IMG/VR virus record: IMGVR_UViG_3300014720_000044
Location: 1-55,958 of that record
Length of the DNA: 55,958 nt
DNA from: a virus
Direction: 5' to 3' (one strand)
The translations under genes were made by a program, and so were the position numbers. The notes beneath the pieces are model-generated. The model had not been told where the DNA came from and searched no databases. It saw nothing but the letters and a program-made list of their open reading frames with translations. Below, one piece after another: positions 11,446 through 50,493 of this stretch (position 1 is its first letter; every line of letters starts with the position of its first letter).

Positions 11446-11454
11446 TGATAAAAT
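11446..11454 (+). promoter_or_regulatory. Extended -10 box (TGATAAAAT), near-leaderless
   Basis: TAAAAT at 11449-11454 with a TGn extension ends nine bases before the ATG at 11464. There is no Shine-Dalgarno sequence in the 20-base gap. The predicted transcript would begin a few bases from the start codon. Confidence 0.4.
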
Positions 11455-11463
11455 AGACTCATA

Positions 11464-14400
11464 ATGTCTAGTCCATCAAATCTATACGCCGAAAACATAT
11501 TCGCAGAGCATCCTCAAATATTGTGGGCACTCGATGATAAAGCAGACTATGTTTCTTTAATTCCTGATGCAAACAGAGATACTCTTACTTGGACAATAGA
11601 TGGTGGCACCTCTCAATTAACCGAAGATTTTGTTGATGCGCCATTTCCAGATAGTGTTATTAACAAGATTACAGTTTCATCTGTTACATCAGAATTTTTT
11701 TCGGTAAGCCTAATAAGCCCAACAATAGTAAATCTTAATCAGTTAAACGAAACACTGAAGACATTTTCTATTGGTTCTTATTTTTATACAACAAGTCCAT
11801 ACGCATTGAGCGTTGAGATTGGCTATAGGTATTATGATTCAGCATTAGAAGAATATGTAGATGTATTAAAATCTTATGAAGCATCCATAAAAGATAAATG
11901 GTTCTTTATATCAGAAACATTCAGCCCAGAAGAAGAAAACTCTACCATACAATTACTGATAAAATTTAATTTCTTGGGTCAGTCTTCAACATTATCAGAT
12001 TATGATTTTTATATTAATGGAATAAGTATTGGACAATGGGCGGAAGAGTTTCAGTCAACATCATTAGGAGTTGATACTATTGACTTGCCTTCAAGTGTAG
12101 ATTTATCAATTAACCTTACAGACGATAAAGTAATTGAAGCAGATGCATACGGATTATCAGTTAGCCCTGGATATTATTTTGTTAATAAAAACTCTCTTGT
12201 TGCTAAAAATTTTGGAGTTTCTTTAGTTTTTGGATCTCAGAACGTTACAAAGATTTATAATAATCAGGGCAAGCCATCCATCATAGTTCCATCATTAGGT
12301 ATGATGTCTGAAAGCGGAAGATATAAAGAGTTTACTTTAGAGTTTTGGATTAGAGCAAATAATTCCTCATCCGAACCTAAAAGAATTATTGGGCCAATAG
12401 GGTCTTCTGACGGTATATATTTTGATGGCCCATTTTTAATATTAAAGATAGATAATAATTATGGATCTTATTACATAGGACAATGGGAAAGACCAATGCT
12501 TATAGATTGGCGATATGCCAACAACATGTCTTCGGTTTTAATTAATGGAGAAGAAGTAATATCTATTAATTTTAATAGCGAACTATTGTCATTACAAAGC
12601 GATAAATCTGCTACTCTAAAAGATAAAAACTGGATAGGGTTTTATGCATATCAGAATATAGAGCCTATAGAAATAGATTGTGTTGCTATATATCCATACA
12701 TGGTTCCATCTTTAGTAGCAAAAAGAAGGTTTGTATTTGGTCAAGGAGTTCAATTCCCAGAAAACTTAAATGCATCATATGGTGGAAGTTCTGTTGTTTT
12801 TGACTACCCTTTTGCAGACTATACAAAAAATTATTCATATCCCAATCTAGGTTCATGGACTCAAGCATCTCTAGATAATGTGATAGAAGAAAACGGATAT
12901 TTAACAATTCCGAATGTTCAATCTCCTGCAATAGTTACTAATAGTTTAACTAAAAAACAATCAGAAATGCTTGAAGATTGTAATGCTATAAACAATCCAG
13001 TTCTTGATCCAGACCTATTTTTAAGATTAAAGCCAAACTCTACTTGGAATAGCACTGACTCTTACTTATACTTTGACACCTTTTCTTTGATTAATCAAGG
13101 AACATCTGCGTTCTATGGCTTGTTTAAAAAAGACGCTGGCTTTTCTGGAACTCAAGTTTTAATGAGACTTGAAGATCAAAATTCTAATTATTTTTCTATA
13201 GAATGTGTCAATAATGATGTTAATTATATTTTAAAGTATGGAGAAAATGCTCCAGAAATTATATATCAATCAGTCGGAGTTCCAAATGAAAAAACATTCC
13301 CAGTTGGAATTATTACAAATACTTTTAAGAATTATTATGGAGAGAATGTTGCTCAATTTTTTGCTAATGAATCTTTGCTTAAGATGTATGTAGGTGGAAC
13401 GAAAGATTTTGAAAAAACATTTACTGGTAAAATTTATAAAGTTGCTTTATGCTCAGAAAAAAATATGTATGAAATACAGTCAGTATTCAATGTACTTGGA
13501 GTCCCAAAAGATTATGAAAACATATTTAATCTATACGGTCCAGGAATAGACTACGACGGCGGGGAGTATGATAGAGAGTTCTGGGATTATTATATTGGAC
13601 AGACACAGTCTAATGAAGATGAACTAGATTTAATTTCTCCTACTTTAGAAAACTTTTCGTTCTGTCCTTCATGCTTTATAGAAATAAAGTTAAAAGACCA
13701 CGATCCTAGTTTAGGTATAACCCCTAAAAAATATTTTGATAGTTTTTATATAGATGCTTCTGTTCGTGGGTCATGGAAAGACTATATTCCGCTTTCTTAT
13801 TTTGGACAATATGTATCTGATGAATACGACAATAAAGTGTTTGATCTTGATTTTATTCAGTTTAACATTAACTATCCAGCACCAACTAAATTTAAAGAAA
13901 CAGAAACAATAGATGCAGATGGATGGACATATGAAGAATTAAGTGCCAGTTATTCTTATCCAGAACAGAGAACCTATGAATCTTTAGATAATTATTTATT
14001 TACTGGTTATATCAATTATGAAGATCTGGCAGAAAAATCTGTAAAGACATATTCGTATGATACTTCAGATGCCATTGTTAAAACATATATTACTTTTGAG
14101 TATTTAGAGCAGGGGGCCAATGCGGTAGACTCATACTTTGTTAATACTGAAAGTGTTCCTAAAAATGGAGTTGTTGAGCCAGGATCAAATTGGATAAACA
14201 CTAAATATGAGGTTGTAGATAATGTTATTATTTATCCACCTAACGGCATAGATTTTAACGATCTTGCTATTAGAATTCACATTGAGTTTAATGTTGACGG
14301 AATAAATTATCATCCTATTCAAATTAAAAATTTAGAGTTAGCGTCTCAAGCATTCAATTACGTTGGAACAAATAGCATAGGCACAAGGTTTGGTACAAAT

Positions 14401-15234
14401 GTTTATCCTTATTCAACAAACGGATATTATTTTAATTATAAATCCAAGAATCCGTTTTTGATCTATAAAGGATCTTCGCCTTATTTATATTTAACTAGAC
14501 ATTCTGGAATTGAGATAAGAGGAGACTATGATCCTATTATAAATAGAGGAATAGCAGTTCCAGTTAATTTGAATCAATCAGAAGATTATGAAGTAATGGC
14601 TATGCAAAGTTTAATTAGGTTTAATGGAGACTTTTTCCCTTATGCTCCAACTAAACTAATGCAAATAAATTCAAAAAATAAAGTGATAAAACTTTACATG
14701 GTTCCAAACCACCCTACTGGAAAAAGAGCAAAAATTTATGCTATAGATGGAAACAGCGGAGAACTGTATGACGGAATATCTTTTTATATCAATGGAAAAA
14801 TTGTAAAAGATCCAGTAATTAATATTAATGAATGGGCAATGCTTGGAATGGGCTTCGGCACAATTCTAGACTTCAAATCATACTCTGGATCAATTATGAT
14901 AAATGGCCCTATCATTTTTAATAGCCTTTCTTTCTACCAAACAACCAACCTTAAAGAAATCCAAAAGGTAGAGAATAGACCCTGGGCACGTGTCAAGTTC
15001 TCGGCTGAGGGTACATTTGAATGGGATTATTGGAGCAACTTCTTCTTGTGGCAGGGCATGCTAATACAGTCTTCTTCAAGTTACTATGGAGTAAATCCAG
15101 AAAATGTATACAAAGCCTATACTGGTACAAATAAGATTATAGTTGGTGACGATGCTACTTTTAGTATTCAAGAGTATGAATATTCTATATTTAAGGATGT
15201 TAAATGGCAGTCCACAATCTCAGATGCCGTATAG
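11464..15234 (+). CDS. Large tail protein with LamG-like domain
   Basis: A 1256-residue beta-rich protein with no enzyme motif visible. Residues about 270-420 (YKEFTLEFWIRANNSSSEPKRIIG, SVLINGEEVISINF, NWIGFYAYQNIEPIEIDCVAIYP) have the rhythm of a LamG or concanavalin-like domain. A second similar unit lies near residues 520-690 (SAFYGLFKKDAG, FFANESLLKMYVGGT). A third is likely at the C-terminus (GKRAKIYAIDG, YDGISFYINGKIV). Such multi-jelly-roll proteins are usual in tail tips and baseplates. The nearby gene at 33635 shares the style. There is no Shine-Dalgarno sequence; a -10-like box lies directly upstream, so the message may be leaderless. It sits between nrdJ and the portal, away from the other tail-tip genes. 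Confidence 0.7.
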   Translation: MSSPSNLYAENIFAEHPQILWALDDKADYVSLIPDANRDTLTWTIDGGTSQLTEDFVDAPFPDSVINKITVSSVTSEFFSVSLISPTIVNLNQLNETLKTFSIGSYFYTTSPYALSVEIGYRYYDSALEEYVDVLKSYEASIKDKWFFISETFSPEEENSTIQLLIKFNFLGQSSTLSDYDFYINGISIGQWAEEFQSTSLGVDTIDLPSSVDLSINLTDDKVIEADAYGLSVSPGYYFVNKNSLVAKNFGVSLVFGSQNVTKIYNNQGKPSIIVPSLGMMSESGRYKEFTLEFWIRANNSSSEPKRIIGPIGSSDGIYFDGPFLILKIDNNYGSYYIGQWERPMLIDWRYANNMSSVLINGEEVISINFNSELLSLQSDKSATLKDKNWIGFYAYQNIEPIEIDCVAIYPYMVPSLVAKRRFVFGQGVQFPENLNASYGGSSVVFDYPFADYTKNYSYPNLGSWTQASLDNVIEENGYLTIPNVQSPAIVTNSLTKKQSEMLEDCNAINNPVLDPDLFLRLKPNSTWNSTDSYLYFDTFSLINQGTSAFYGLFKKDAGFSGTQVLMRLEDQNSNYFSIECVNNDVNYILKYGENAPEIIYQSVGVPNEKTFPVGIITNTFKNYYGENVAQFFANESLLKMYVGGTKDFEKTFTGKIYKVALCSEKNMYEIQSVFNVLGVPKDYENIFNLYGPGIDYDGGEYDREFWDYYIGQTQSNEDELDLISPTLENFSFCPSCFIEIKLKDHDPSLGITPKKYFDSFYIDASVRGSWKDYIPLSYFGQYVSDEYDNKVFDLDFIQFNINYPAPTKFKETETIDADGWTYEELSASYSYPEQRTYESLDNYLFTGYINYEDLAEKSVKTYSYDTSDAIVKTYITFEYLEQGANAVDSYFVNTESVPKNGVVEPGSNWINTKYEVVDNVIIYPPNGIDFNDLAIRIHIEFNVDGINYHPIQIKNLELASQAFNYVGTNSIGTRFGTNVYPYSTNGYYFNYKSKNPFLIYKGSSPYLYLTRHSGIEIRGDYDPIINRGIAVPVNLNQSEDYEVMAMQSLIRFNGDFFPYAPTKLMQINSKNKVIKLYMVPNHPTGKRAKIYAIDGNSGELYDGISFYINGKIVKDPVININEWAMLGMGFGTILDFKSYSGSIMINGPIIFNSLSFYQTTNLKEIQKVENRPWARVKFSAEGTFEWDYWSNFFLWQGMLIQSSSSYYGVNPENVYKAYTGTNKIIVGDDATFSIQEYEYSIFKDVKWQSTISDAV

Positions 15235-15236
15235 TA

Positions 15237-15245
15237 TGGTATACT
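15237..15245 (+). promoter_or_regulatory. Extended -10 promoter, leaderless (TGGTATACT)
   Basis: TATACT at 15240-15245 with TGG directly upstream starts seven bases after the previous stop codon begins and ends seven bases before the ATG at 15253. That is the expected distance for transcription to begin at the A of the start codon. No -35 is visible and no Shine-Dalgarno sequence is present. Confidence 0.6.
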
Positions 15246-15252
15246 TGTGGTT

Positions 15253-15621
15253 ATGAAACATCAAAATCCAAACAAACTCGGTAAGTCTAAGTTAAAAGTA
15301 ATAGATAAAAACTATGACTGGGGTATCTATGTTTGGAAAAAGGCTAATGGAAAATGGTTTACAGATGGCCAGGGAAATGTTTTAAATATACCTTCCATGA
15401 AGGGTGATATTTCCAAAATAGCAGAATTAAAGAAAGCAGCAGCATATTATGGACAGCCAGAGGGAGAGGCCGTATTTTTCCCAGGTCTAAGCAGAATCTC
15501 TGACGAAGAATACGCAGAGCAAAAGCAAAGAATGGCAGAAGGCTTAATCCCAAATCTTAATGACCTTGGCGCAGTACATGCTGCACAGCAAACTATTAAG
15601 CGATATGGAGCAGACGACTAA
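15253..15621 (+). CDS. Conserved protein upstream of portal
   Basis: A 122-residue hypothetical protein. The start is put at the ATG at 15253; a GTG at 15247 is also in frame but lies only two bases from the -10 box and so could not be in the transcript. The sequence (KLKVIDKNYDWGIYVWKKANGKWF, LNIPSMKGDI, AYYGQPEGEAVFFPGLSRISDEEY, GLIPNLNDLGAV) is of a kind often found just before portal genes in actinobacterial phages. Its stop overlaps the portal start by one base (TAATG), so the two are probably translationally coupled. Its role is unknown, perhaps in head morphogenesis. Confidence 0.7.
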   Translation: MKHQNPNKLGKSKLKVIDKNYDWGIYVWKKANGKWFTDGQGNVLNIPSMKGDISKIAELKKAAAYYGQPEGEAVFFPGLSRISDEEYAEQKQRMAEGLIPNLNDLGAVHAAQQTIKRYGADD

Positions 15622-17213: not shown

Positions 17214-17234
17214 TTTTCCACAAGTTTATCCACA
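17214..17234 (+). promoter_or_regulatory. Pair of DnaA-box-like sites
   Basis: TTTTCCACA (17214-17222) and TTATCCACA (17226-17234) lie on the same strand, 12 bases apart start to start, in the 65-bp gap before the protease gene. The second is a perfect match to the consensus TTATNCACA. They lie 30-50 bases upstream of a -10 box, so they could mark a DnaA-responsive promoter or part of an origin. Two sites alone are too few to call an origin. Confidence 0.35.
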
Positions 17235-17262
17235 AAATATTAATACTTGTGTAAAAAGGCTC

Positions 17263-17275
17263 TATAATATATACT
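17263..17275 (+). promoter_or_regulatory. Double -10 boxes before protease gene, near-leaderless
   Basis: TATAAT (17263-17268) and TATACT (17270-17275) lie just before the ATG at 17279. TTGTGT at 17247-17252 stands 17 bases before the second box, but that pair would start transcription past the ATG; the first box would start it about four bases before. There is no Shine-Dalgarno sequence. Confidence 0.4.
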
Positions 17276-17278
17276 AGT

Positions 17279-18625
17279 ATGACTATATCTAAGGCTCAAT
17301 GGAATTCAGAGGGCGACAGCGTTCGCCTTTCCCTTCCTTTTGCGAAGGTTGATAAAGAAAGACGTACAGTCTCAGGTTTTGCATCCCTTGATAATATTGA
17401 TAAACAAGGCGATATCGTAACAGCAGAAGCGTCAATGAAAGCATTTTCAAGTTTCCGTGGAAATATCCGTGAGATGCATCAGCCATCTGCAGTTGGTAAG
17501 ATGGTTTCATTTAAGCAAGACCGCTACTTTGATCCAGAAACAAAAAAGTTTTATAATGGGGTATTTGTATCTGCATATGTTTCAAAAGGTGCACAAGATG
17601 CCTGGGAAAAAGTTTTAGACGGTACATATACAGGATTTTCGATTGGTGGCAAGATGAATAAGTGGGATGACGGTTATGATGAAAAGTCAGATACAACAAT
17701 TAGAATTATTAAAGACTATGATCTTGTAGAGTTGTCATTGGTTGACTCTCCAGCAAATCAATTTGCAAATATTATGCAGGTTGAAAAGGTGGATGGAGTT
17801 TCTGTAATTAAGGGTCAAGATGTAGTCTTAGAAAATGTTTTTTATGATGAAGAGTCTGGATTAGTAATGGTTTCAGATGAAGAATCAGTGATGAGTCCAA
17901 CAACTGGAAATCCAATGAAGAATATAGGTTTCGTTGAAAAAGAAGACAACGAAAAAGTAAATATGGTTAAATTCTTAGTTGATAGTGCTAAAGGCATTAA
18001 TACTTCTAAGATAACGAAGGAGGAAGATCCTATGTCAAGAAAAATAAAATCAGCAGAAGTTGAAAAAACAAATGCTGTAGTTGAAGATATGATCGCTCCA
18101 GAGGCAGATGCCGTAGTTGAGGCTCCTGCTGTCGAAGAAGTTGTTGAGGCTCTAGTAGAGACTCCAGCAACAGAAGAAGTTGCTGCAAAGTCTGAAGAAC
18201 TGCCAGCAACCGAAGAAGTTGTTGAAAAGTCTGAAGAGACAGAGGCAACAGAGGCAGTGGTTGAAGAAATTGCAGAAGTATCTAAATCAGATGAGGTTAT
18301 TGTTGAATCGGTTAGCGCTGTTTCAGAATCAGTAACTGAAATCAAGAATACACTTACATCAGCCTTTAGCGATCTCGTAGCAACAGTTAAATCCTTGCAG
18401 GATGAAGTTGCTTCGCTAACAAAATCCCTAGATGCAGTTAGATCAGAAGTATCTAACACACAGGGTTCAGTAAATGAGTTTGGTAAGCGAGTTGACGCAG
18501 TAGAAGCAGATACCGCTTTCCGAAAGTCTGGCGATCTCGGTGAGGTCGTACAGTACGAACCGCAAATGGTTCAAAAATCCCTATGGGGCGGACGTTTCCT
18601 CAAAACAGCCGACTTATTTAATTAA
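17279..18625 (+). CDS. Prohead protease (XkdF-like) fused to scaffold domain
   Basis: A 448-residue protein in two parts. Residues 15-175 are a phage serine protease of the XkdF/S78 type: VSGFASLDNIDKQGDIV, a likely catalytic His67 in REMHQPS, Ser121 in TGFSIGG, and an acidic partner near E151 or D156 in VELSLVDSPAN. Residues 252-448 are a Glu/Val/Ala-rich low-complexity stretch followed by a coiled coil (SESVTEIKNTL, VKSLQDEVASLTKSLDAV). The C-terminus binds or models the shell, as expected of a scaffold. The protease matures the prohead by cutting scaffold and itself. There is no ribosome site at 17279, but a strong one lies inside the gene, before codon 252 (see nested scaffold). Confidence 0.85.
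   Translation: MTISKAQWNSEGDSVRLSLPFAKVDKERRTVSGFASLDNIDKQGDIVTAEASMKAFSSFRGNIREMHQPSAVGKMVSFKQDRYFDPETKKFYNGVFVSAYVSKGAQDAWEKVLDGTYTGFSIGGKMNKWDDGYDEKSDTTIRIIKDYDLVELSLVDSPANQFANIMQVEKVDGVSVIKGQDVVLENVFYDEESGLVMVSDEESVMSPTTGNPMKNIGFVEKEDNEKVNMVKFLVDSAKGINTSKITKEEDPMSRKIKSAEVEKTNAVVEDMIAPEADAVVEAPAVEEVVEALVETPATEEVAAKSEELPATEEVVEKSEETEATEAVVEEIAEVSKSDEVIVESVSAVSESVTEIKNTLTSAFSDLVATVKSLQDEVASLTKSLDAVRSEVSNTQGSVNEFGKRVDAVEADTAFRKSGDLGEVVQYEPQMVQKSLWGGRFLKTADLFN
18032..18625 (+). CDS. Nested in-frame capsid scaffold protein
   Basis: An internal ATG at 18032, in the protease frame, has AAGGAGGA at 18017-18024, eight bases upstream, the strongest ribosome site within the gene. Initiation there yields 197 residues beginning MSRKIKSAEVEK, that is, the scaffold part without the protease. 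This copies the logic of lambda C/Nu3, where protease-scaffold fusion and free scaffold come from one frame. The low-charge break just before M252 (GINTSKITKEEDP) fits a domain boundary. I infer that the free form is made in excess over the fusion because the full-length start lacks a ribosome site. Confidence 0.7.
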   Translation: MSRKIKSAEVEKTNAVVEDMIAPEADAVVEAPAVEEVVEALVETPATEEVAAKSEELPATEEVVEKSEETEATEAVVEEIAEVSKSDEVIVESVSAVSESVTEIKNTLTSAFSDLVATVKSLQDEVASLTKSLDAVRSEVSNTQGSVNEFGKRVDAVEADTAFRKSGDLGEVVQYEPQMVQKSLWGGRFLKTADLFN

Positions 18626-18636
18626 GTAAATCACTT

Positions 18637-18645
18637 AGGAGGTGA
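18637..18645 (+). promoter_or_regulatory. Strong ribosome binding site of capsid gene
   Basis: AGGAGGTGA is a nine-base match to the 16S rRNA 3' end, four bases before the ATG at 18650. With the preceding TCACTT it can also form a short six-pair hairpin with a three-base loop, which could tune access; this may be chance. Confidence 0.6.
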
Positions 18646-18649
18646 CAAT

Positions 18650-19765: not shown

Positions 19766-19785
19766 TCTGTAATCAGTATCTTTTG

Positions 19786-19817
19786 AGAGGGGCAGGGGTT
19801 AGAACTCCTCCCCCTCT
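19786..19817 (+). terminator. Rho-independent terminator after capsid gene
   Basis: A GC-rich stem of about 13 pairs with two mismatches (19786-19798 with 19805-19817) encloses a six-base loop and is followed by TATCTTTA. It would stop most transcripts after the capsid gene. Confidence 0.7.
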
Positions 19818-19831
19818 TATCTTTAGTATTC

Positions 19832-19840
19832 TGTTATAAT
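19832..19840 (+). promoter_or_regulatory. Extended -10 promoter (TGTTATAAT)
   Basis: A perfect TATAAT at 19835-19840 with a TGn extension lies 15 bases after the terminator and 21 bases before the next ATG, which has AGGAGG upstream. It restarts transcription for the connector genes. Confidence 0.6.
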
Positions 19841-19861
19841 AGACACACAGGAGGTATATAA

Positions 19862-22841: not shown

Positions 22842-22885
22842 ATAAAAGGCTTGTATACTTAGAACTGAGGAAACACGCCTTTTAT
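22842..22885 (+). promoter_or_regulatory. Inverted repeat enclosing a -10 box
   Basis: ATAAAAGGC (22842-22850) and GCCTTTTAT (22877-22885) are perfect 9-bp arms. A TATACT at 22854-22859 lies in the loop. A transcript arriving from upstream could fold into a terminator-like hairpin with a TTTTATTTCT run, while one starting in the loop would lack the left arm. Confidence 0.45.
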
Positions 22886-22914
22886 TTCTATAGAAAAAAA
22901 GAGGTGAAATATAA

Positions 22915-23560: not shown

Positions 23561-23584
23561 GCCCAGTCGAAAGGCTGGGCTTTT
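23561..23584 (+). terminator. GAAA-tetraloop terminator after tail tube gene
   Basis: GCCCAGTC and GGCTGGGC (23561-23580) pair over eight bases around a GAAA tetraloop, followed by TTTT. This is the cleanest intrinsic terminator in the window. Confidence 0.88.
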
Positions 23585-23589: not shown

Positions 23590-23598
23590 TGGTATAAT
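23590..23598 (+). promoter_or_regulatory. Extended -10 promoter, leaderless (TGGTATAAT)
   Basis: A perfect extended -10 begins inside the T-rich tail of the preceding terminator and ends six bases before the ATG at 23605. No Shine-Dalgarno sequence fits in the gap. The transcript is predicted to start at or beside the start codon. Confidence 0.65.
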
Positions 23599-23604: not shown

Positions 23605-24288
23605 ATGGCTACAACAATTTATGATAGTGCTTATATTAATTTAATAGATGGTACTAATATTTATATAACACCTTTAAAAATAAAATACCTACGTGAATTT
23701 TTAGTAGTTTTTGAAGATGTTAAAGAAACAAGGGGTGATGAGCAGGCAATCGCTGCACTTGCTAAATGTGCTTTAGTTGCTATGAAACAATATTATCCTG
23801 AAATAAAAACAATAGAGCAATTAGAAGATAGCGTAGATCTTCCAACTATTTATAAAATATTGGATATCGCAGCGGGTATAAAAATAGATAATAATTCTCA
23901 GGAAGAAGTAAAGACTCAGGCTACTGAAAGCGGATCCACTTGGGATACATTAGATTTAGTTAAACTAGAATCAGAAGTATTTCTATTGGGAATATGGAAA
24001 GATTATGAAGAACTTGAAACCTCGATGTCAATGCCAGAATTAACAGCAACCTTAAATATTAAAAGAGAATTAGATTATGCGGATAAAAAGTTTTATGCAG
24101 CAATACAGGGTGTTGACCTAGACAAGAATACTAAAAAGACTAATGCCTGGGAAGACATGAAGGCCAGGGTATTTAGTAAAGGTAAGGCTACAGACTCAAA
24201 TGACATCATGGCACTACAAGGAATTAATGCACAGCAGGCAGGGTTTGGAATTGGCATGGGCCTAGATTATGAGGAAATAAAAGACTAA
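23605..24288 (+). CDS. Long tail assembly chaperone (GT-like)
   Basis: A 227-residue protein just before the short chaperone and tape measure. Residues 1-97 are clearly paralogous to the whole of the next protein ('LIDGT.I...PLKI..LR.F', 'A..QY.PE', 'DLPT.YKI'). Residues 98-227 form an added domain (TWDTLDLVKLESEVFLLGIWKDYEELE, then MPELTATLNIKRELDYADKKFYAAIQG), the position taken by the T part of gpG-T in other siphoviruses. The chaperone would keep the tape measure soluble and recruit tube protein. There is no ribosome site; the gene looks leaderless. No slippery sequence is needed, because the long form is its own gene. Confidence 0.7.
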   Translation: MATTIYDSAYINLIDGTNIYITPLKIKYLREFLVVFEDVKETRGDEQAIAALAKCALVAMKQYYPEIKTIEQLEDSVDLPTIYKILDIAAGIKIDNNSQEEVKTQATESGSTWDTLDLVKLESEVFLLGIWKDYEELETSMSMPELTATLNIKRELDYADKKFYAAIQGVDLDKNTKKTNAWEDMKARVFSKGKATDSNDIMALQGINAQQAGFGIGMGLDYEEIKD

Positions 24289-24297: not shown

Positions 24298-24333
24298 CTC
24301 CTTATGGTATAATTGACTTAACCTTATAAGGAG
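24298..24333 (+). promoter_or_regulatory. Inverted repeat covering the short chaperone's ribosome site
   Basis: CTCCTTAT (24298-24305) and ATAAGGAG (24326-24333) are perfect 8-bp arms. The right arm is the Shine-Dalgarno of the next gene (AAGGAGG, 24328-24334). The left arm lies upstream of the -10 box, so it is present only in read-through RNA. RNA begun at the internal promoter would leave the ribosome site free. Confidence 0.5.
24305..24313 (+). promoter_or_regulatory. Extended -10 promoter of short chaperone (TGGTATAAT)
   Basis: Identical in sequence to the box at 23590 but 25 bases before its ATG, with AAGGAGG in the leader. No -35 is visible. Confidence 0.6.
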
Positions 24334-39868: not shown

Positions 39869-40362
39869 TGACAACGCCAGATCAGGGAATAAAGAAAGTA
39901 ATTATTCCAAAATCAGAATTGCCAGGATTTTTAGCCAAGAAGTACGAAGACGAGAATGGTAATCTTGTAGAGATAACTCAATATATATTAAGATATAGAT
40001 TCATATCAGAAGATAAAAATAGAACCTCTCATTGGTCTCCTTCGTATAGAATTAGTTCTGAGGATACGCCTCAAGAAATTTTAAATAGTATGGTTATAGA
40101 TACAAGCAATAGGGTAGTAAGTTTAACATGGCAGCCACAACCCAGCGTTTCTGGCTATTATATTTATGTTTGCTGGAATAATAATTTAAATGGGAACGGA
40201 GATCCAGATTGGCAATATTATGCTACAACTACTTCTCCAAGTTATTCTATAGTATACCCAATTGACAAAATACATATAAAGGTTGCAGTACAAGTAAGTA
40301 CCATACCTTTAGAAAGATTCAGTTCTGCCACCTTGTTTGAAAACCAGGGCAGTCTGGTATAA
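39868..40362 (+). CDS. Tail protein with fibronectin-III-like fold
   Basis: A 164-residue protein starting in a TAATG overlap. Residues about 35-150 (YILRYRFISEDKNRTSHWSPSYRI, VVSLTWQPQPSVSGYYIYVCW, IKVAVQVSTIPLERF) have the Trp and Tyr pattern of a fibronectin type III domain. Such domains are common on phage tails and may help weak binding to cell surfaces. The gene ends inside the -10 box of the next promoter. Confidence 0.6.
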   Translation: MTTPDQGIKKVIIPKSELPGFLAKKYEDENGNLVEITQYILRYRFISEDKNRTSHWSPSYRISSEDTPQEILNSMVIDTSNRVVSLTWQPQPSVSGYYIYVCWNNNLNGNGDPDWQYYATTTSPSYSIVYPIDKIHIKVAVQVSTIPLERFSSATLFENQGSLV

Positions 40363-40363
40363 T
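40355..40363 (+). promoter_or_regulatory. Extended -10 promoter (TGGTATAAT)
   Basis: The box overlaps the stop codon of the upstream gene and lies 15 bases before the next ATG, with AGGAGG between. TTGTTT at 40333 is a poor -35 with a 19-base spacer. Confidence 0.5.
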
Positions 40364-40378: not shown

Positions 40379-40825
40379 ATGTCAAAAATACCACCACCAC
40401 AATTAGGCCAACCATTAGATGTTAAGTATATTAATGAGATAGTCAAAGTATTAAATGATCTATCAATACAAATATCTCCATCTATAAATAAATATGTTAC
40501 CGTAGATGTACCGAAAGACGGAACCACCCAAAGTGCGAGGGCTTCAGAAACCAGAATTATAGGTGGTTATGTAGATGTAGTAAAAAGTTCAAACCAGAGC
40601 ATTGGAAGCCAGCAATCATTTACCTATGCATTTCCAGCAGAATTTAAGTTTGCTCCAATAGTTACTGCTAGTCCAGTTAACGTAGGTGGAACAGAGGCTG
40701 GAGGAAATGTTTCTGTTGTTTTAAAAAAAGTAACAACATCCAAGGTAGACGGTGTTGTAAACTTTAATGCCCCTGGTCAAGTGTCTATTGGGGTTAACCT
40801 CTTGATAGTTGGTATTCCTAATTAA
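40379..40825 (+). CDS. Small tail-region structural protein
   Basis: A 148-residue protein. The start at 40379 is fixed by AGGAGG at 40369-40374; an upstream in-frame ATG at 40337 lies before the predicted promoter. It has an N-terminal Pro-rich segment (MSKIPPPQLGQPLD), a short helix, and a beta-rich second half (SFTYAFPAEFKFAPIVTASPVNVGG, GQVSIGVNLLIVGIPN) resembling the receptor-binding end units of small fibres. It is the last structural-looking gene before the replication module and has its own promoter. Confidence 0.6.
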   Translation: MSKIPPPQLGQPLDVKYINEIVKVLNDLSIQISPSINKYVTVDVPKDGTTQSARASETRIIGGYVDVVKSSNQSIGSQQSFTYAFPAEFKFAPIVTASPVNVGGTEAGGNVSVVLKKVTTSKVDGVVNFNAPGQVSIGVNLLIVGIPN

Positions 40826-41016
40826 TGATAAAATGTAAAAAATGTTTCAAAAAAATGATGGTTGATAGAGTTTATAACTCTATATCTCATTTAGAAATTT
40901 TTTGTTTATTGTGTGGCTCTAGAAGATTTTTTCATCCACCATCAGATTCTAAGGAAGGCAAATGGCTGTTAGAAAAGGAAATCGAACGAGCGAAGAATAC
41001 AATCTCGCCCCTGTAA
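40825..41016 (+). CDS. Small zinc-ribbon protein
   Basis: A 63-residue protein with two CxxC knuckles (CKKC near residue 4 and CLLC near residue 27), which could bind one zinc ion. The C-terminus is a charged helix (EGKWLLEKEIERAK). It begins in a TAATG overlap and itself overlaps the next gene by 55 bases. A nucleic-acid-binding or regulatory role is likely but not shown. Confidence 0.6.
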   Translation: MIKCKKCFKKMMVDRVYNSISHLEIFCLLCGSRRFFHPPSDSKEGKWLLEKEIERAKNTISPL

Positions 41017-41504
41017 TTCCAGGTAATAAAAAGGTTTGGTTTTTAAATGGTGATTTAGTTCGTATTCATCATTCTAATAGATCTAATGGAATAATGTCTT
41101 TATATAATATAACAAAAGATAGATTAGAAAGTTGTCTTTCAAATGATTTTAAAAAAAATAGAGAGAGGGCTTACACTGTTGGAGAAACTGCAGATCTTGT
41201 AAATAGGCATAAAAAATATTTACCAAGATTAATGAAACGTGGTGTGATTCCATTTCCTACAGGATCACAAAAGGGTGGGGCTAGAGGTTGGCAGGTAAGG
41301 TCTTATTATTCTGAGTCGCAAATAAAAGAGATTCGTGATATACTAGCATCTTATCATATCGGCAGACCAAGAAAAGATAAATTAATAACAAATGATATTA
41401 CGCCCAGCAAGGCTGAGTTGACACGAAGAATGGGCGATGGTATACTTACATATACGAGAACTGAAGACGGTAGATTTATACCAATTTGGTCAGAATCAAT
41501 ATAA
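40962..41504 (+). CDS. Putative MerR/excisionase-like HTH protein
   Basis: A 180-residue protein. Residues about 65-125 (YTVGETADLVNRHKKYLPRLMKRGVIP, then GWQVRSYYSESQIKEIRDIL) read as a winged helix-turn-helix of the MerR/excisionase type: recognition helix, a wing with GARGWQVR, then a 'YSESQIKEIRD' helix. The N-terminal and C-terminal parts are basic and unassigned. It opens the replication module and may regulate it. It overlaps the zinc-ribbon gene by 55 bases. AAGGAAGG precedes the start. Confidence 0.6.
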   Translation: MAVRKGNRTSEEYNLAPVIPGNKKVWFLNGDLVRIHHSNRSNGIMSLYNITKDRLESCLSNDFKKNRERAYTVGETADLVNRHKKYLPRLMKRGVIPFPTGSQKGGARGWQVRSYYSESQIKEIRDILASYHIGRPRKDKLITNDITPSKAELTRRMGDGILTYTRTEDGRFIPIWSESI

Positions 41505-41726: not shown

Positions 41727-42035
41727 GTGACAGACAAACAGAAGCGATTGGCTCTGTTAAGTCGGTTTGACAAACACTATAAGTTTAAACTAGGACAGAC
41801 GCCACAATATAATAAGTGGATAGAGCAGTGGTCTGCTGATGCACTCATTGAATCTTATGGCATGGATTTATGCTATGAGTTATTAGAGTATTATTTTGAG
41901 GTAACTGAAAATCCCACATGGAATCATTTTGCATATATTGCACATGATATACTGAAAGCAAAAGATCAATATAAAAGAGATTTACAAGAACGAGAAGAGC
42001 GTAGAGAAAAGGCTAAGGAGTGGTTAAGTGAATAG
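41727..42035 (+). CDS. Hypothetical protein before helicase
   Basis: A 102-residue, helical, highly charged protein starting at GTG (41727), one base after the previous stop. Blocks are 'LGQTPQYNKWIEQWSADALIESYG' and a long C-terminal charged helix (KDQYKRDLQEREERREKAKEWL). It overlaps the helicase gene by eight bases, so co-translation is likely. A helicase-loading partner is possible from this position, but no loader signature is visible. Confidence 0.55.
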   Translation: MTDKQKRLALLSRFDKHYKFKLGQTPQYNKWIEQWSADALIESYGMDLCYELLEYYFEVTENPTWNHFAYIAHDILKAKDQYKRDLQEREERREKAKEWLSE

Positions 42036-43254
42036 TACAGAATCTAGATTAATCTCCGCAGTCTTACAAGATAAACAAGCACATGTATTGTTACAGGCTA
42101 ATGTAGAAAATATCTTAGCAACACATGGCGATATTTGGCAATTCATTAGAAAGTATTTTGAGCAAAACGGAACGGTTCCGCCAGAGTCTTTAGTCGTAGA
42201 CAAATTTAGAGATTTTGAGTTAGTTAAAGATATCGGAACAACCAAACATCATCTAGAAGAATTACAGGCTGAATACCTTACAAATAGCCTTAAAGATATT
42301 ATTAGGTCTGCTGCCACAGATGTTCAGGGTGGCTTAGGAGTAGAGGCTTTAGAATCATTAATATCTAAAACATCAGAACTTAGAAAAAATACAGCAGCAA
42401 TCCGTGACATTGATGTTACAGATATTGATTCTGCAATTGCATATTTTGAAAATCTTAAGAAACAACAAGAGTCTGGCGCATTAGGAATTAAGACAGGTCT
42501 TCCAGGATTTGATAACTACCTACCTTCTGGAATCATGCCAGGGCAGTTAGGAGTGTTTCTTGCATATCCAGGCATAGGAAAGTCATGGTTGTCTCTTTAT
42601 TTCGCTGTGCAGGCTTGGAAACAGGGTCGTAGCCCAATGATTATAAGTCTTGAAATGTCTGAGGTAGAGGTTCGCAACCGTGTATTTGCAATTATGGGTG
42701 AGGGTGTTTGGTCACACAGAAAGTTAAGCGCTGGTCAAGTTGAGATAGATATGCTAAAGTCATGGCATACAAAAAATGTTAAGGGTAGACCAGAGTTCCA
42801 TATTATTTCTAATGATACAGGTGGAGAAATTACTCCTTCTGTTTTGCGGGGTAAGATAGATCAATATAAACCAGACTTTGTTATTGTAGACTATCTACAA
42901 CTTATGTCTCCTAATAGTAAATCAGATAATGAAACTATTCGTATGAAAAATCTTTCTCGTGAATTAAAGTTAATGGCTATTGCAGAAGAGGTTCCTATTA
43001 TTGCGATTTCGTCTGCTACCCCTGATGATGTCACTAAACTTGAAACTGTTCCAACACTTGGCCAAACCGCATGGTCTCGCCAGATCGCTTATGATGCTGA
43101 CTGGGTATTGGCTTTAGGGCGAGGTACTAATAGTGATATTATTGAATGCGTATTTCGTAAGAATCGTAACGGTTTTATGGGAGAATTCTTGGTTCAGGCT
43201 GATTTTGATAAGGGATATTACAGGTATAAAGATTATGAAGATAAGACAGTATAA
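42028..43254 (+). CDS. dnaB: DnaB-like replicative helicase
   Basis: A 408-residue hexameric-type helicase that would unwind DNA ahead of the phage polymerase. It starts at GTG (42028) with AAGGAG eight bases upstream. A short N-terminal helical domain (residues 1-125) is followed by the RecA-like core: Walker A YPGIGKS (residues 180-186), SLEMSEVEVRNR, and Walker B VIVDYLQLM (D288). The C-terminus has the DADWVLALGRG sensor strand and FRKNRNGFMGEF. The protein is a little shorter than bacterial DnaB. Next to it are primase, probable SSB and polymerase. Confidence 0.92.
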   Translation: MNSTESRLISAVLQDKQAHVLLQANVENILATHGDIWQFIRKYFEQNGTVPPESLVVDKFRDFELVKDIGTTKHHLEELQAEYLTNSLKDIIRSAATDVQGGLGVEALESLISKTSELRKNTAAIRDIDVTDIDSAIAYFENLKKQQESGALGIKTGLPGFDNYLPSGIMPGQLGVFLAYPGIGKSWLSLYFAVQAWKQGRSPMIISLEMSEVEVRNRVFAIMGEGVWSHRKLSAGQVEIDMLKSWHTKNVKGRPEFHIISNDTGGEITPSVLRGKIDQYKPDFVIVDYLQLMSPNSKSDNETIRMKNLSRELKLMAIAEEVPIIAISSATPDDVTKLETVPTLGQTAWSRQIAYDADWVLALGRGTNSDIIECVFRKNRNGFMGEFLVQADFDKGYYRYKDYEDKTV

Positions 43255-43255
43255 T
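43250..43255 (+). promoter_or_regulatory. -10 box, leaderless start
   Basis: TATAAT spans the end of the helicase gene and ends seven bases before the ATG at 43263. There is no Shine-Dalgarno sequence, no TG extension and no clear -35. Confidence 0.45.
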
Positions 43256-43262
43256 ATGATAC

Positions 43263-43589
43263 ATGGCAACCTATCATCACAAGCCTATAAAGAAATTCGG
43301 ACTGGACGGTATCATTCATGACGACTCTTCTCTTGCTAGGCTTAAGGGAGAATATATCAGGCTTATCGTATCTGAGATGCGATTATCTGGTTATGTACCA
43401 AGGTTTGACATTGAGCCAGACTTTACAATAGAATATGATCATAATAAAAATTATTTTAACTTTGAATTAACAGTTTACGGAGTATATACAGGGAGAAAAC
43501 AAAGCGAATGGATACTAGGAATAGACGGACACAAACCAATACTTATACAAGAGAGCAAGTCAAAAGAGTACTCGCAGGAGCAGGTATAA
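43263..43589 (+). CDS. Hypothetical protein between helicase and primase
   Basis: A 108-residue protein with no recognised family. It is mixed alpha/beta, with 'SSLARLKGEYIRLIVSEMRLSGYVPRFDIEPDFTIEYDHNKNYFNFELTVYGVY' (split over residues 22-76) suggesting one helix followed by antiparallel strands. It has no ribosome site and is probably leaderless. Its 3' end overlaps the primase gene by 82 bases in another frame, an unusually long overlap for this genome. Confidence 0.6.
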   Translation: MATYHHKPIKKFGLDGIIHDDSSLARLKGEYIRLIVSEMRLSGYVPRFDIEPDFTIEYDHNKNYFNFELTVYGVYTGRKQSEWILGIDGHKPILIQESKSKEYSQEQV

Positions 43590-44452
43590 CTGTAGAGTCT
43601 GAGGTAGACTCTGACTATATTATTTTTTGTCCATTTCACGCTAATCATAGAACCCCTGCTGGAGAAGTTCATAAAGATGGAGGAACATTCTTTTGTTTTT
43701 CTTGTCACAAGGTTGCAGACTTAATAGAATTAGTTATGCATATGTCTGGAAGAAGTTATTTTGAATCTGTTAGATTTATTAAAAGCAAAGAGCAAGAGTC
43801 TGATATAACTTTAGAAATTGATAAACAACTTTATAAGAGGCCAGACTACGTTCCTTATGATGAGGTAATAATAAAAAGATTAAACACACAAGCCTTGGAT
43901 GCTCCAAGAGCAGTTAGATATTTTGAAGGCAGATCTATTAATGAATCTTCAATGCGTAAATTTTATTTAGGCTATTCGGAAAAACAAGATATGGTCACTG
44001 TTCCTGTACATAGTCCAGATGCAATTTGTGTAGGATTTGTTGCTAGATCTATAGAGGGCAAAGACTTTAAGAATACTCCAGGTTTACCAAAATCTAAAAT
44101 ATTATTCAACTTGCATAGAGTAAAGACTTCTGATAGAGTATATGTAGTTGAATCATCATTTGATGCTATAAGACTAGATCAAGTAGGATTGCCTGCGGTA
44201 GCGACATTAGGTGCTAATGTTTCCAACACACAGGTAGAACTGTTGCAAAAGTACTTCAATGATATTGTTGTTATTGCGGATAATGATGCAGCAGGAGGAA
44301 ATATGAAAGACAAAATAGTTGAAAAGTTAGGATCAAGTATTTCTATAATTCAACTAGAAAAGCAGTATAAAGATATAGGCGATATGAGGGATGAAGATAT
44401 AAAGAATCTCGATTATCAATTTGACAAAGCAATACAATCTATGCTAAACTAG
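43508..44452 (+). CDS. dnaG: DnaG-type primase
   Basis: A 314-residue primase that would make RNA primers for the phage fork. A CHC2-type zinc finger (C41, H44, C63, C66) is followed by a linker and the Toprim domain: E215 in VYVVESSFDA, then D258 and D260 in IADNDAAGG. The C-terminal helicase-binding domain of bacterial DnaG is absent, as in many phage primases. The start at 43508 has GGAG about 15 bases upstream. It lies 82 bases inside the previous gene, but the zinc finger leaves little room for a later start. Confidence 0.88.
   Translation: MDTRNRRTQTNTYTREQVKRVLAGAGITVESEVDSDYIIFCPFHANHRTPAGEVHKDGGTFFCFSCHKVADLIELVMHMSGRSYFESVRFIKSKEQESDITLEIDKQLYKRPDYVPYDEVIIKRLNTQALDAPRAVRYFEGRSINESSMRKFYLGYSEKQDMVTVPVHSPDAICVGFVARSIEGKDFKNTPGLPKSKILFNLHRVKTSDRVYVVESSFDAIRLDQVGLPAVATLGANVSNTQVELLQKYFNDIVVIADNDAAGGNMKDKIVEKLGSSISIIQLEKQYKDIGDMRDEDIKNLDYQFDKAIQSMLN
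44421..44450 (+). promoter_or_regulatory. Promoter with -35 and extended -10
   Basis: TTGACA at 44421-44426, an 18-base spacer and TGCTAAACT at 44442-44450 form the only promoter in the window with a consensus -35. It lies in the end of the primase gene, 23 bases before the SSB ATG at 44474, which has AAGGAG. Confidence 0.6.
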
Positions 44453-44473
44453 AAGAGAACAAAGGAGAAAAAC

Positions 44474-45136
44474 ATGAGCGTAATCAAGGGACTAAAAAAT
44501 ATCAATGCCCTGCTCGATAAGAAAACAGATGAAGGCGCATCAAAGGTTCGTTGGCTAAAGTTGGCTGATGGACAAGCAGTAAAAATCAGATTCATTGAAG
44601 AGTTGGATGAAGACTCTGCACACTATGATGCAAAGCGTGGTCTTGCACTGGTTGTTAAAGAACACACAAATCCAAAAGACTATAAGCGTAAGGCTGTAGA
44701 CACATTAGACACCGAAGGCCGTGACTGGGCTGAAGAGATGTACCGCAAGGATCCAAAGGGTAATAGTGGATGGCGTGGTCGTCTTCGTTTTTATTGCAAC
44801 GTACTTGTAGACGATGGCATTGAAGATAAGCCTTATGTTGCTATTTGGTCTATGGGCGTAAGTAAGCAGTCTGCATTTAATACAATTCGTGAGTATGCAC
44901 TTGAAACAGGTAGCATCTCAAATATTACATGGAAGTTAAAGCGTAATGGTCAGGGAACTGAAACATCTTACACTTTGATTCCTTCCGCTCCAGATAAGGA
45001 GCCATTTAAGTGGGAAGGCATTGAGCCATATCCATTGGAGAGAGCACTTCGTCGTGTTCCATACGCAGAGCAAGAGGCATTCTATCTTGGCTTTGACACT
45101 CCTTCATCTACAGCAGCGACAAACATCGACTGGTAG
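44474..45136 (+). CDS. Probable single-stranded DNA-binding protein
   Basis: A 220-residue protein between primase and polymerase. A helical N-terminus is followed by a beta-rich core (WLKLADGQAVKIRFIEEL, RLRFYCNVLVDDG, KPYVAIWSMGVSKQSAFNTIREYALETGSI) that resembles gp32-like and similar phage OB-fold binders. The tail 'AATNIDW' ends in an aromatic residue, though it is less acidic than a normal SSB tip. Higher CGT and C-ending codon use and a strong promoter fit an abundant protein. The identification rests on context and fold guess, not on a clear motif. Confidence 0.55.
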   Translation: MSVIKGLKNINALLDKKTDEGASKVRWLKLADGQAVKIRFIEELDEDSAHYDAKRGLALVVKEHTNPKDYKRKAVDTLDTEGRDWAEEMYRKDPKGNSGWRGRLRFYCNVLVDDGIEDKPYVAIWSMGVSKQSAFNTIREYALETGSISNITWKLKRNGQGTETSYTLIPSAPDKEPFKWEGIEPYPLERALRRVPYAEQEAFYLGFDTPSSTAATNIDW

Positions 45137-45139
45137 TAG

Positions 45140-48415: not shown

Positions 48416-48725
48416 TGAGTTAGCAGAAAAAGTTCATAAGAATGCAGTTGATAAAGGTTTTTGGGATAGGCCAGCAGACCCTATCTTTATAGCAAAGCAA
48501 ATGATGATGATTGTTTCTGAGGTATCAGAAGCCATGGAGGCTGTTCGTAAAGAGATGGACCCAGATCAGATATCAGACGAATTTGCTGACATTATCATTC
48601 GTACTCTAGATCTTTATGCTGGTATTGCAGAGGCGGGATATGTAAAGAAGTCTCTTGATTATGCTATTAAAGAAAAGATGGAACGCAACACACATAGACC
48701 AAAGAAGCATGGGGTAAGATTCTAA
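48408..48725 (+). CDS. mazG: MazG-like nucleotide pyrophosphohydrolase
   Basis: A 105-residue single-domain member of the all-alpha NTP pyrophosphohydrolases. The metal-binding pattern E38-x2-E41 and E58-x2-D61 (SEVSEAMEA, DEFADI) is intact. It would hydrolyse (d)NTPs or (p)ppGpp-like nucleotides and so tune host nucleotide pools. It overlaps the polymerase gene by eight bases, has GGAGG before its start, and its stop overlaps recA by one base. Confidence 0.85.
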   Translation: MFDELAEKVHKNAVDKGFWDRPADPIFIAKQMMMIVSEVSEAMEAVRKEMDPDQISDEFADIIIRTLDLYAGIAEAGYVKKSLDYAIKEKMERNTHRPKKHGVRF

Positions 48726-49738
48726 TGACAGTAACAATAGAGGATGTATTGGCACAACTCAATCCTAAATTAAGGAAAAACATTTTAGTTGGAGACGAGG
48801 TACCAAAAACAGAATATGCCGCTACTCCAAGTTATGGTTTAAACCGTGCCCTTAATGGTGGCCTTCCATATGGTAGACAGGTTCTTATTTGGGGAAGCAA
48901 GTCTAGTGCTAAGTCTTCTCTTTGTTTACAGACTATCGCTTTGGCACAGGCAGAGGGCAAGATCTGTGCTTGGATCGATGCAGAAATGTCATATGATAAA
49001 GATTGGGCAGAAAAATTAGGAGTAGATGTTTCTAAATTAATTGTTTCTCAGGCAAGAACTATTAATGAGATGGTTGATGTTGGAGTAAACTTAATAGAGG
49101 CTGGCGTAGATATTATTGTGGTAGACTCTATTACTTCATTGCTACCAGCAATTTATTTTGAGAAAGACTCTACAGAACTTAAACAATTAGAAAATACTAA
49201 ACAGATAGGTGCAGAGTCTCGTGACTTTAGTAATGCTTGGAAGATGCTCAATTATGCTAATAACAAAGTAAAGCCAACATTGCTTATTCTAATATCTCAA
49301 TCACGAAACAATATTAATGCAATGTATACAAGCCAACAGCCAACAGGCGGTCAGGCTACAAAGTTTTATTCATCTACAGTTGTTAAGTTGTTTTCTTCTG
49401 AATCAGAAAACCAAGCATTGAAAGGAAAAATATATGTTGGTGACAAGGCTATTGAAGAGAAGGTTGGCAGAAAGATTAGATGGGAACTCCAGTTTTCTAA
49501 AACCAGTCCTGCTTTTCAGTCTGGTGAATATGATTTCTATTTTAGAGGCGACAACTTGGGCATTGATGGGATCGCTGATCTTGTTGACACTGCTGAGTTA
49601 GTAGGGATAGTAGAGCGTACTGGTGCATGGTATCTATTGCCAGATGGCTCTAAAGTTCAAGGTAGAGATGGATTTGTTTCACGAGTAAGAGAGGATCTTG
49701 ATCTACAAGAAATGATTAAGGCTAAGATAAGTGGGTAA
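48725..49738 (+). CDS. recA: RecA-like recombinase
   Basis: A 337-residue RecA/UvsX-class ATPase for strand exchange and repair of phage DNA. The core is recognisable: 'TPSYGLNRALNGGLPYGRQVLIWG', Walker A 57-GSKSSAKSS-65, 'CAWIDAEMSYDKDWAEKLGVD', and Walker B 'DIIVVDSITSLLP'. 'LLILISQSRNN' and a C-terminal 'IDGIADLVDTAELVGIVERTGAWY' follow; the last is typical of RecA. The P-loop has Ala62 where the family has Gly (GxxxxGK). It starts in a TAATG overlap with mazG. Confidence 0.9.
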   Translation: MTVTIEDVLAQLNPKLRKNILVGDEVPKTEYAATPSYGLNRALNGGLPYGRQVLIWGSKSSAKSSLCLQTIALAQAEGKICAWIDAEMSYDKDWAEKLGVDVSKLIVSQARTINEMVDVGVNLIEAGVDIIVVDSITSLLPAIYFEKDSTELKQLENTKQIGAESRDFSNAWKMLNYANNKVKPTLLILISQSRNNINAMYTSQQPTGGQATKFYSSTVVKLFSSESENQALKGKIYVGDKAIEEKVGRKIRWELQFSKTSPAFQSGEYDFYFRGDNLGIDGIADLVDTAELVGIVERTGAWYLLPDGSKVQGRDGFVSRVREDLDLQEMIKAKISG

Positions 49739-49907
49739 GTATACTATTTACGAAGGAAAGTTTCCTTGTAAAAACTGCAAAGAAGAAGTAAAAACTATAA
49801 GAGTATACGCAAGCACTGGGATGGCTTCATGGATGTGCTCTCAAAAACATTTATCAGAAGTAGAACTATTTAAGGTTGGATATAAGAAAAAGAAAATACA
49901 TGAGTGA
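49731..49907 (+). CDS. Small zinc-ribbon protein
   Basis: A 58-residue protein from a GTG at 49731, overlapping the end of recA by eight bases. It begins MGKYTIYEGKFPCKNCKEEV and carries CxxC at residues 13-16 plus a single Cys near residue 37 in WMCSQKHL, where a later His may complete the zinc site. It is followed by a basic C-terminus (GYKKKKIHE). Proteins of this pattern, 'FPCK.CKEEV ... TWMCS.KHLS', are common beside recombination genes in actinophages. Function unknown. Its stop overlaps the next gene by eight bases. Confidence 0.7.
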   Translation: MGKYTIYEGKFPCKNCKEEVKTIRVYASTGMASWMCSQKHLSEVELFKVGYKKKKIHE

Positions 49908-50190
49908 GAGATCTGAAAGTAAAAGAATAGGAGCAAAGCAGCATAAGAATTCTGGTAGAAATACTAAGAAGGGCGACGCTACTTGGGAAAACTTTACAGT
50001 GGACTTTAAGGAGAACTCAAAATCTTTTACACTAAATCATGAAGTATGGGCAAAGGCAGTTACCGATGCTATCAGGAACGGCAACGATCCAGCGATAGTT
50101 GTGGTGTTGGGCGAGGGTAACAAGAAGGTCAGACTTGCTATAATAGAGTTAGAACTACTAGAACAGATGGTGAAAAATGGAACAGAATAA
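49900..50190 (+). CDS. Putative Hjc-like PD-(D/E)xK nuclease
   Basis: A 96-residue protein; the ATG at 49900 overlaps the previous stop and is preferred over an upstream in-frame ATG at 49876. The pattern E6, then SGR..KKGD26, then VD35FK37 with a following 'SFTLNHEVWAKAVTDAI' and 'DPAIVVVLGE' fits the compact PD-(D/E)xK fold of archaeal-type Holliday junction resolvases and small phage endonucleases. It lies among RecA, Cas4-like and RuvC-like genes, which supports a recombination or junction role. No experiment-level evidence; the fold match is by eye. Confidence 0.5.
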   Translation: MSERSESKRIGAKQHKNSGRNTKKGDATWENFTVDFKENSKSFTLNHEVWAKAVTDAIRNGNDPAIVVVLGEGNKKVRLAIIELELLEQMVKNGTE

Positions 50191-50482
50191 AACAACACTT
50201 GAATTAGTTAATGGGCTATCTGAAATTGCTGACTATATGCAGGATGAAGAATTGACTTCAGCCCTGACATTTATCGCTAAGTTAATATTAAAACCAGATA
50301 TCCCTATGAATGTGGCTGCTATGGAAATAGTAAGACTACAGGCAATAGCAGCAAAAATGTCATTCCGTGCTACCTGGATGGCTAATGTTGATAAGTCAGA
50401 CAGAGGCAAGAAGAATATATACTATACTGCAGCCGAATCAATAAACAGTTTGGTCTCTGCATTAAAGTACATCATTCGTTGA
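50177..50482 (+). CDS. Hypothetical helical protein
   Basis: A 101-residue, mostly helical protein (LELVNGLSEIADYMQDEELTSALTFIAKLIL, MEIVRLQAIAAKMSFRATWM, AAESINSLVSALKYIIR) overlapping the upstream nuclease gene by 14 bases. It has a short basic loop (KSDRGKKNIYY). The sequence type is common just before Cas4-like nucleases in actinobacterial phages. Function unknown. Confidence 0.6.
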   Translation: MEQNKTTLELVNGLSEIADYMQDEELTSALTFIAKLILKPDIPMNVAAMEIVRLQAIAAKMSFRATWMANVDKSDRGKKNIYYTAAESINSLVSALKYIIR

Positions 50483-50484
50483 TC

Positions 50485-50493
50485 TGGTATAAT
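50485..50493 (+). promoter_or_regulatory. Extended -10 promoter (TGGTATAAT)
   Basis: A perfect extended -10 in the 28-base gap before the Cas4-like gene, 17 bases before its ATG, with AAGGA between. No -35 visible. Confidence 0.55.

Follow-up and report, generated by a model that had tools for sequence, protein, structure and literature searches.

The DNA analyzed here (IMG/VR record IMGVR_UViG_3300014720_000044, hereafter the window) is one contig of 55,958 bp with 36% GC and all genes on the plus strand, among them genes for tail fibers, a ribonucleotide reductase, head and tail proteins, and replication proteins (Table 1). Our subject is a promoter-like element, the extended -10 box TGnTATAAT and its close variants. 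It stands before many of these genes, either a few nucleotides (nt) from the start codon and without a Shine-Dalgarno (SD) sequence or farther upstream and with one. Among cultured phages, the closest are Streptomyces phages of the Stanwilliamsviridae, with 43% identity in the major capsid protein (MCP), 50-56% in the protease, and the same gene order. Virion gene order and homologous proteins are common to both, and we treat the window as a relative of this family, its formal placement being a separate matter. Rhodococcus phages are more distant cultured relatives.

All twelve boxes listed in a preliminary description of the window are present, four of them (23590, 24305, 40355, and 50485) sharing the sequence TGGTATAAT. 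Three more had been missed, before 3704 (AGATATAAT), 22915 (TTGTATACT), and 50177 (TGCTATAAT). The spacings given there also proved correct: at five genes (11464, 15253, 17279, 23605, and 43263) the -10 ends 6 to 10 nt before the ATG, and at the other seven a gap of 15-50 nt contains an SD, which is weak at 50511.

One possibility is that these boxes are chance matches in AT-rich DNA, and the raw count of exact TGnTATAAT in the window is indeed not above chance (7 observed, 5.2 expected from shuffles). However, each of the 7 exact sites is followed by a gene start 4-60 nt downstream. The relaxed motif TGnTA[A/T]A[A/C]T places 11 of its 20 plus-strand sites in this zone, which makes up 4.4% of the window (binomial P ~1e-10), while with 78 permutations of the hexamer, the context being unchanged, 6 of 158 sites fell there; the minus strand holds 4 relaxed sites. 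We also checked whether the motif is equally dense in coding DNA, the observation that the preliminary description had named as fatal to its proposal, and the result does not count against the boxes. These counts confirm that the box motif is real and that its enrichment lies in position, not in raw count.

To place the boxes in a comparative setting, two scans of IMG/VR yielded 160 related loci, in which gene starts were mapped by tblastn and the upstream regions read. The spacing between box and start, taken over 34 gene families, was bimodal. Boxes at 4-11 nt were accompanied by an SD in 6 cases and lacked one in 194, while those at 12-60 nt had an SD in 181 cases and lacked one in 61. An annotation-free scan of 2 Mb for TATAMT followed by an ATG opening at least 60 codons had its highest count, 83 distinct cases, at 6 nt; at this distance the permuted hexamers gave a mean of 5.9 (maximum 29) and the minus strand gave 1. 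Neither position and strand nor spacing and conservation come anywhere near random expectation, and the comparative data refute chance as an explanation, leaving it next to no probability.

Start type was mostly fixed gene by gene among orthologs. A -10 hexamer 5-8 nt before the start is found at 23605 (6 nt), 15253 (7 nt), and 43263 (7 nt), while 11464 (9 nt) and 17279 (10 or 6 nt) are classed as near-leaderless. Upstream SDs are absent or rare at these genes: 0/48 at 23605, 0/73 at 43263, 0/27 at 15253, and 4/39 at 17279. A box at 4-10 nt was present in 48/48 orthologs of 23605 and 73/77 of 43263. The arrangement at 15253 was constant in 27/35 orthologs, and among the remaining 8 several plainly reflect a start codon wrongly chosen too far downstream. 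Orthologs of 11464 were leaderless-type in 17/24; five had a box only farther away, four of these with an SD. Relatives of 17279 form two clades, with TATAAT either 10 nt before ATG or 6 nt before GTG.

The leadered genes were equally regular. A box at 12-60 nt with an SD was found in 14/14 orthologs of 9413, and a leader with an SD in 20/20 of 19862, 51/51 of 22915 (where the leader itself is conserved), and 77/77 of 44474; of 48 orthologs of 24339, 47 were leadered and 46 of these had an SD. Two genes varied. At 40379, 54/60 orthologs had the box at 4-10 nt (one also with an SD), placing the window in a leadered minority, and the gene tree needs about seven changes of mode, at least three to four of them forced by well-supported branches. 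At 50177 a box was present in 24/32 orthologs, with both start types.

Six cultured Streptomyces phages (Beuffert, Kenrey, Faust, TunaTartare, Coruscant, and Daubenski) were compared by reading their upstream regions by eye. TAnnnT without an SD stands 6-7 nt before the ATG of the 15253 ortholog in 6/6, 6 nt before that of the 17279 ortholog in 6/6, and 6-9 nt before that of the 11464 ortholog in 5/6, the annotated start differing in TunaTartare. These are the three head genes with the firmest case for a leaderless start. The portal and MCP orthologs have SD-like leaders, and most orthologs of 19862 and of the tail-tube gene have a box plus an SD. These data are strong evidence that near-start boxes serve what we predict to be leaderless starts, the genes concerned staying constant among phages whose hosts differ greatly.

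Table 1. Promoter boxes, terminators, and assigned genes in the window.
Feature	Position	Strand	Remarks
Extended -10 TGATATAAT	1581..1589	+	Leadered, SD GAGGAGAG, tail-fiber gene 1630; only 4 orthologs for conservation
Tail fibers	1630, 3704	+	PHROG match
Extended -10 TGCTATACT	9371..9379	+	Leadered, gene 9413
Ribonucleotide reductase	9413	+	PHROG match
Extended -10 TGATAAAAT	11446..11454	+	9 nt before ATG 11464, no SD; predicted 0-3 nt leader
Extended -10 TGGTATACT	15237..15245	+	7 nt before ATG 15253, no SD
Portal	15621	+	PHROG match
-10 TATAAT	17263..17268	+	10 nt before ATG 17279, no SD
Capsid protease	17279	+	PHROG match
MCP	18650	+	PHROG match
Terminator-like hairpin	19785..19818	+	After the MCP gene; recurs in relatives
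Extended -10 TGTTATAAT	19832..19840	+	Leadered, SD AGGAGG, gene 19862
-10 TATACT	22854..22859	+	55 nt to start of 22915; leader with 5'-proximal GAGGAAAC and SD GAGGTGA
Tail tube (major tail protein)	22915	+	PHROG match
Intrinsic terminator, stem GCCCAG/CTGGGC then TTTTCTGTTT	23561..23580	+	Before 23605
Extended -10 TGGTATAAT	23590..23598	+	Exactly 6 nt before ATG 23605, no SD
Tail assembly chaperone, long form (G-T fusion, one frame), 227 amino acids	23605..24288	+	phrog_10504 + phrog_10474; homologous to Coruscant G and T
Extended -10 TGGTATAAT	24305..24313	+	Leadered, SD AAGGAGG, gene 24339
Tail assembly chaperone, short form (G), 108 amino acids	24339..24665	+	phrog_10504 only
Tape measure	24694	+	Position, size, annotated relatives
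Extended -10 TGGTATAAT	40355..40363	+	Leadered, SD AGGAGG, gene 40379
TTGACA-N17-TGGTATACT	41418..41446	+	Intragenic, inside 40962; directed towards replication genes
Helicase	42028	+	PHROG match
-10 TATAAT	43250..43255	+	7 nt before ATG 43263, no SD; helicase stop codon inside box
Primase	43508	+	PHROG match
TTGACA-N18-TGCTAAACT	44421..44450	+	Leadered, SD, gene 44474
Single-stranded DNA-binding protein	44474	+	PHROG match
DNA polymerase	45140	+	PHROG match
Extended -10 TGCTATAAT	50136..50144	+	Before 50177
Extended -10 TGGTATAAT	50485..50493	+	Leadered, weak SD AAGGA, gene 50511; poorly conserved in relatives
Terminase	53202	+	PHROG match

The boxes have the make-up of extended -10 promoters with a dispensable -35. 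The TG was present in 48/48, 47/47, 51/51, 25/25, and 16/16 sequences at five sites and absent at 43263, and -35 scores were at chance except at 44474 and at an internal site, 41418-41446, that the preliminary description lacked. Its statement that there is usually no -35 holds for most boxes and fails at 44474, where TTGACA with a spacer of 18 scores 6/6 in 67/68 relatives. A division into early and late classes by the -35 was considered and rejected, as other boxes of the replication block have none and no clean class emerges. At 41418-41446, the wobble bases of both hexamers are nearly fixed in 48 distinct sequences while adjacent wobble bases vary, which suggests a promoter under synonymous constraint. 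The gene that contains it (40962-41504) encodes a 180-amino-acid protein of phrog_9440 with a median identity of 83%, among the family's most conserved; it has no Pfam match and by eye resembles a small DNA-binding protein.

The host is, judging from its phage relatives, an actinobacterium, because the nearest cultured phages infect Streptomyces and Rhodococcus, WhiB is encoded in 9/16 relatives, and a near relative of the MCP was found on a contig binned in an Actinomycetota metagenome-assembled genome (MAG). It is probably a freshwater organism. This MAG may not be the host's, and phage contigs in MAGs can be mis-binned. TAnnnT stands 6 nt before 15/152 of its candidate starts, against a background of about 2, and an SD precedes only 15. 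The strict pattern TATAATN6ATG gave no signal in the MAG (0 and 1; control 0 and 1) because the box there is TAnnnT, for which the looser test did give one. Actinobacteria have more than 20% leaderless genes, with TAnnnT about 12 bp upstream (PMC3160421), and in mycobacteria about 14% of genes are leaderless (PMC7148126).

In sixteen phage records, several of them fragments, sigma-70 region 4 gave no hit that exceeded the family cut-off, and the host SigA is therefore likely to be the reader of the boxes. The alternative is a phage-encoded sigma factor or activator acting in the style of T4 middle promoters, which are also extended -10 promoters without a -35. The chance-level -35 scores of most boxes would fit such a factor. 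On the other hand, the 16 records offer no candidate sigma factor, no shared element was seen in the place of the -35, and a MAG assigned to the host phylum has the same kind of leaderless spacing. We therefore consider a phage-encoded reader improbable.

The preliminary description had proposed that one extended -10 class feeds two start architectures, and that this lets the phage change which mRNAs are used during infection. The first part is borne out by the comparison of spacing and SDs in relatives; the second is not. A temporal switch would require that the phage alter ribosomes or initiation factors so that leaderless mRNAs are favored at one stage. The sharp separation of the two architectures is compatible with this, as are the specialized ribosomes for leaderless mRNA reported in Escherichia coli and streptomycetes in work cited by PMC4681348. 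However, both modes occur in virion and replication modules and even adjoin in each (23605/24339 and 43263/44474), the box is shared, the mode at 40379 has flipped repeatedly, and leaderless genes are standard in Actinobacteria. Among the subset of proteins scanned, no family match suggested a ribosome-modifying enzyme. Substitution of start type between orthologs is already known in Actinobacteria (PMC3160421). A switch is thus very improbable.

What start type might be for, if not a switch, could be speculated in two ways, both compatible with a host-read promoter class and each possible but somewhat doubtful. One is dosage, with SD leaders for products needed in many copies and leaderless starts for low-copy or catalytic ones. 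Capsid, tail tube, single-stranded DNA-binding protein, and chaperone G are SD-led; the protease, chaperone GT, and small head and replication proteins are leaderless-type. This split by product is consistent in the window and fixed in relatives for GT (48/48) and G (47/48). The genes are few, however, and in mycobacteria the protein/mRNA ratio shows no systematic dependence on leader status, although constructs without a leader had lower predicted transcript production (PMC7148126). The other is packing, in which a leaderless start allows a promoter to overlap the stop codon of the preceding gene or to follow that codon at once. In keeping with this, 43263, 15253, and 11464 are preceded by gaps of 8-20 nt, and the TATAAT of 43263 includes the upstream stop codon. 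However, 23605 is leaderless despite a 63-nt gap with a terminator, and packing leaves unexplained why GT and G never swap modes.

These last two genes, 23605 and 24339, form a split tail assembly chaperone, identified also from position, size, and annotated relatives. One copy is short (G) and the other a fused long form (GT), and their G parts are 43% identical. A lambda-type frameshift, with T in another frame after G, is not the arrangement here: the T part of 23605 shares the frame of its G part, and 24339 has no T behind it. The Streptomyces relatives do have one G gene followed by T in a different frame, annotated with a frameshift in Kenrey and TunaTartare, and by eye no G or T domains were recognizable in the genes between tail tube and tape measure of Rhodococcus phage Weasels2. 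Both genes (about 226 and 107 amino acids) were found in 45/45 freshwater loci that include the whole interval, with one long form truncated. Each type forms one clade (support 97/85 and 98/94), and the pair would therefore descend from a single old duplication.

The long form is leaderless-type and the short form leadered, and a terminator precedes the long form, its stem pairs being 98.4% formed in 18 relatives with 13 double changes, a value reached in 0/500 shuffles. No terminator was seen between the two genes; therefore transcripts started at the first promoter should extend through G, and the second promoter would add G only. We hypothesize that this arrangement yields an excess of G over GT, as lambda does with its G:GT ratio of 30:1 (PMC5009743). 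A tentative proposal, with odds somewhat short of even, is that stoichiometry is set by transcription and initiation mode, the terminator and leaderless promoter serving GT and the second promoter with its strong SD supplying extra G. A further idea, that read-through RNA hides the SD of 24339 in a CTCCTTAT/ATAAGGAG hairpin like that of T4 gene e, was rejected, as the upstream arm is not conserved.

Taken together, the most likely explanation is that extended -10 boxes open most transcription units of a freshwater actinobacterial siphophage, with the primary sigma factor of the host as their most likely reader. In five or six of these units no SD is present and 5-10 nt separate the -10 from the start codon; there the RNA would begin no more than about 3 nt from that codon and be translated leaderless. 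The remaining units would have an RNA leader of about 10-50 nt with an SD. Each gene would then have a start type of its own, in most cases passed down across long distances and now and then exchanged, and the choice would reflect the normal expression grammar of the host clade, not an infection-time switch. We put the probability of this whole account at roughly 0.87.

Several points weigh against it. The start codons come from a rule that went wrong in some cases, and the loci are related, so that counts are not independent and the number of events is overstated. The RNA 5' ends are predictions, and spacings of 9-10 nt (11464, and 17279 in one clade) suit a leader of 3-4 nt better than none. 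Use of SigA is deduced from the absence of a phage sigma factor in partly fragmentary records, which leaves room for a phage activator or an unrecognized sigma factor.

The mechanism is ordinary for actinobacteria. Their TA-led leaderless genes likewise have TATAAT or TAnnnT about 6 nt before the start, no SD, and orthologs that sometimes switch (Zheng et al. 2011, PMC3160421); in contrast, the present case concerns a phage family, virion and replication genes, and a genome of 36% GC with boxes close to the consensus TGnTATAAT. Lambda cI and E. coli prophage regulators (PMC4681348), and by prediction Adephagia gene 90 (PMC11373665), are also phage genes transcribed from the start codon, but they are single regulatory or toxin-antitoxin genes, whereas here five or six structural or replication units carry evidence of conservation. 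In the open-access literature on leaderless actinophage genes and split chaperones, only Adephagia gene 90 and a T4-like case were found. The Stanwilliamsviridae share the gene order from reductase to tape measure, the leaderless-type boxes at the orthologs of 11464, 15253, and 17279, and the leadered boxes at most orthologs of 19862, the tail tube, and the chaperone. The window differs in its freshwater origin, 36% GC, an MCP only about 43% identical, and the chaperone split into two genes.

That split is itself not new. T4-like phages, according to Vladimirov 2022 as cited in PMC10885494, also make short and long forms from separate genes without a frameshift; they are a different phage class. 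In the window the two copies have separate promoters and differ in start mode. The lambda G/GT programmed frameshift (PMC5009743) gives the same two products from the corresponding site, also flanked by tail tube and tape measure, but the window needs no frameshift.

A few additional observations concern particular leaders and neighboring genes. An inverted repeat, AGAGTTTT...AAAACTCT (9340-9379), abuts the -10 of the reductase promoter and is kept in 14 relatives; it could be an operator or a hairpin. The tail-tube leader (22854-22914) contains, besides its true SD, the 5'-proximal GAGGAAAC, conserved in 38/38 distinct relatives and present as GAGGAAG in the Streptomyces phages. It may be a ribosome-binding mRNA stabilizer like STAB-SD. 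A leaderless mini-open reading frame in this leader was rejected, as its ATG is not conserved. An unlisted open reading frame of 51 amino acids (52202-52357), helix-turn-helix-like and with an SD, lies in the gap before 52354, and two adjacent similar-looking proteins, the first of phrog_7084, are encoded at 7770-9321 between tail fibers and reductase. Pfam gave no function for most of the small proteins. The window is probably a fragment of a larger genome because related records reach 123 kb.

These comparisons offer strong evidence, at the level of sequence, that essential virion genes are expressed from putative leaderless starts in a large phage family, and therefore the annotation of start codons in actinophages should not depend on the SD. 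The same genes have the same architecture in culturable Streptomyces phages, which makes the claim testable. The part most worth following is the split chaperone with its opposite start modes, a natural case where some other means would have taken the place of frameshifting in controlling the ratio.

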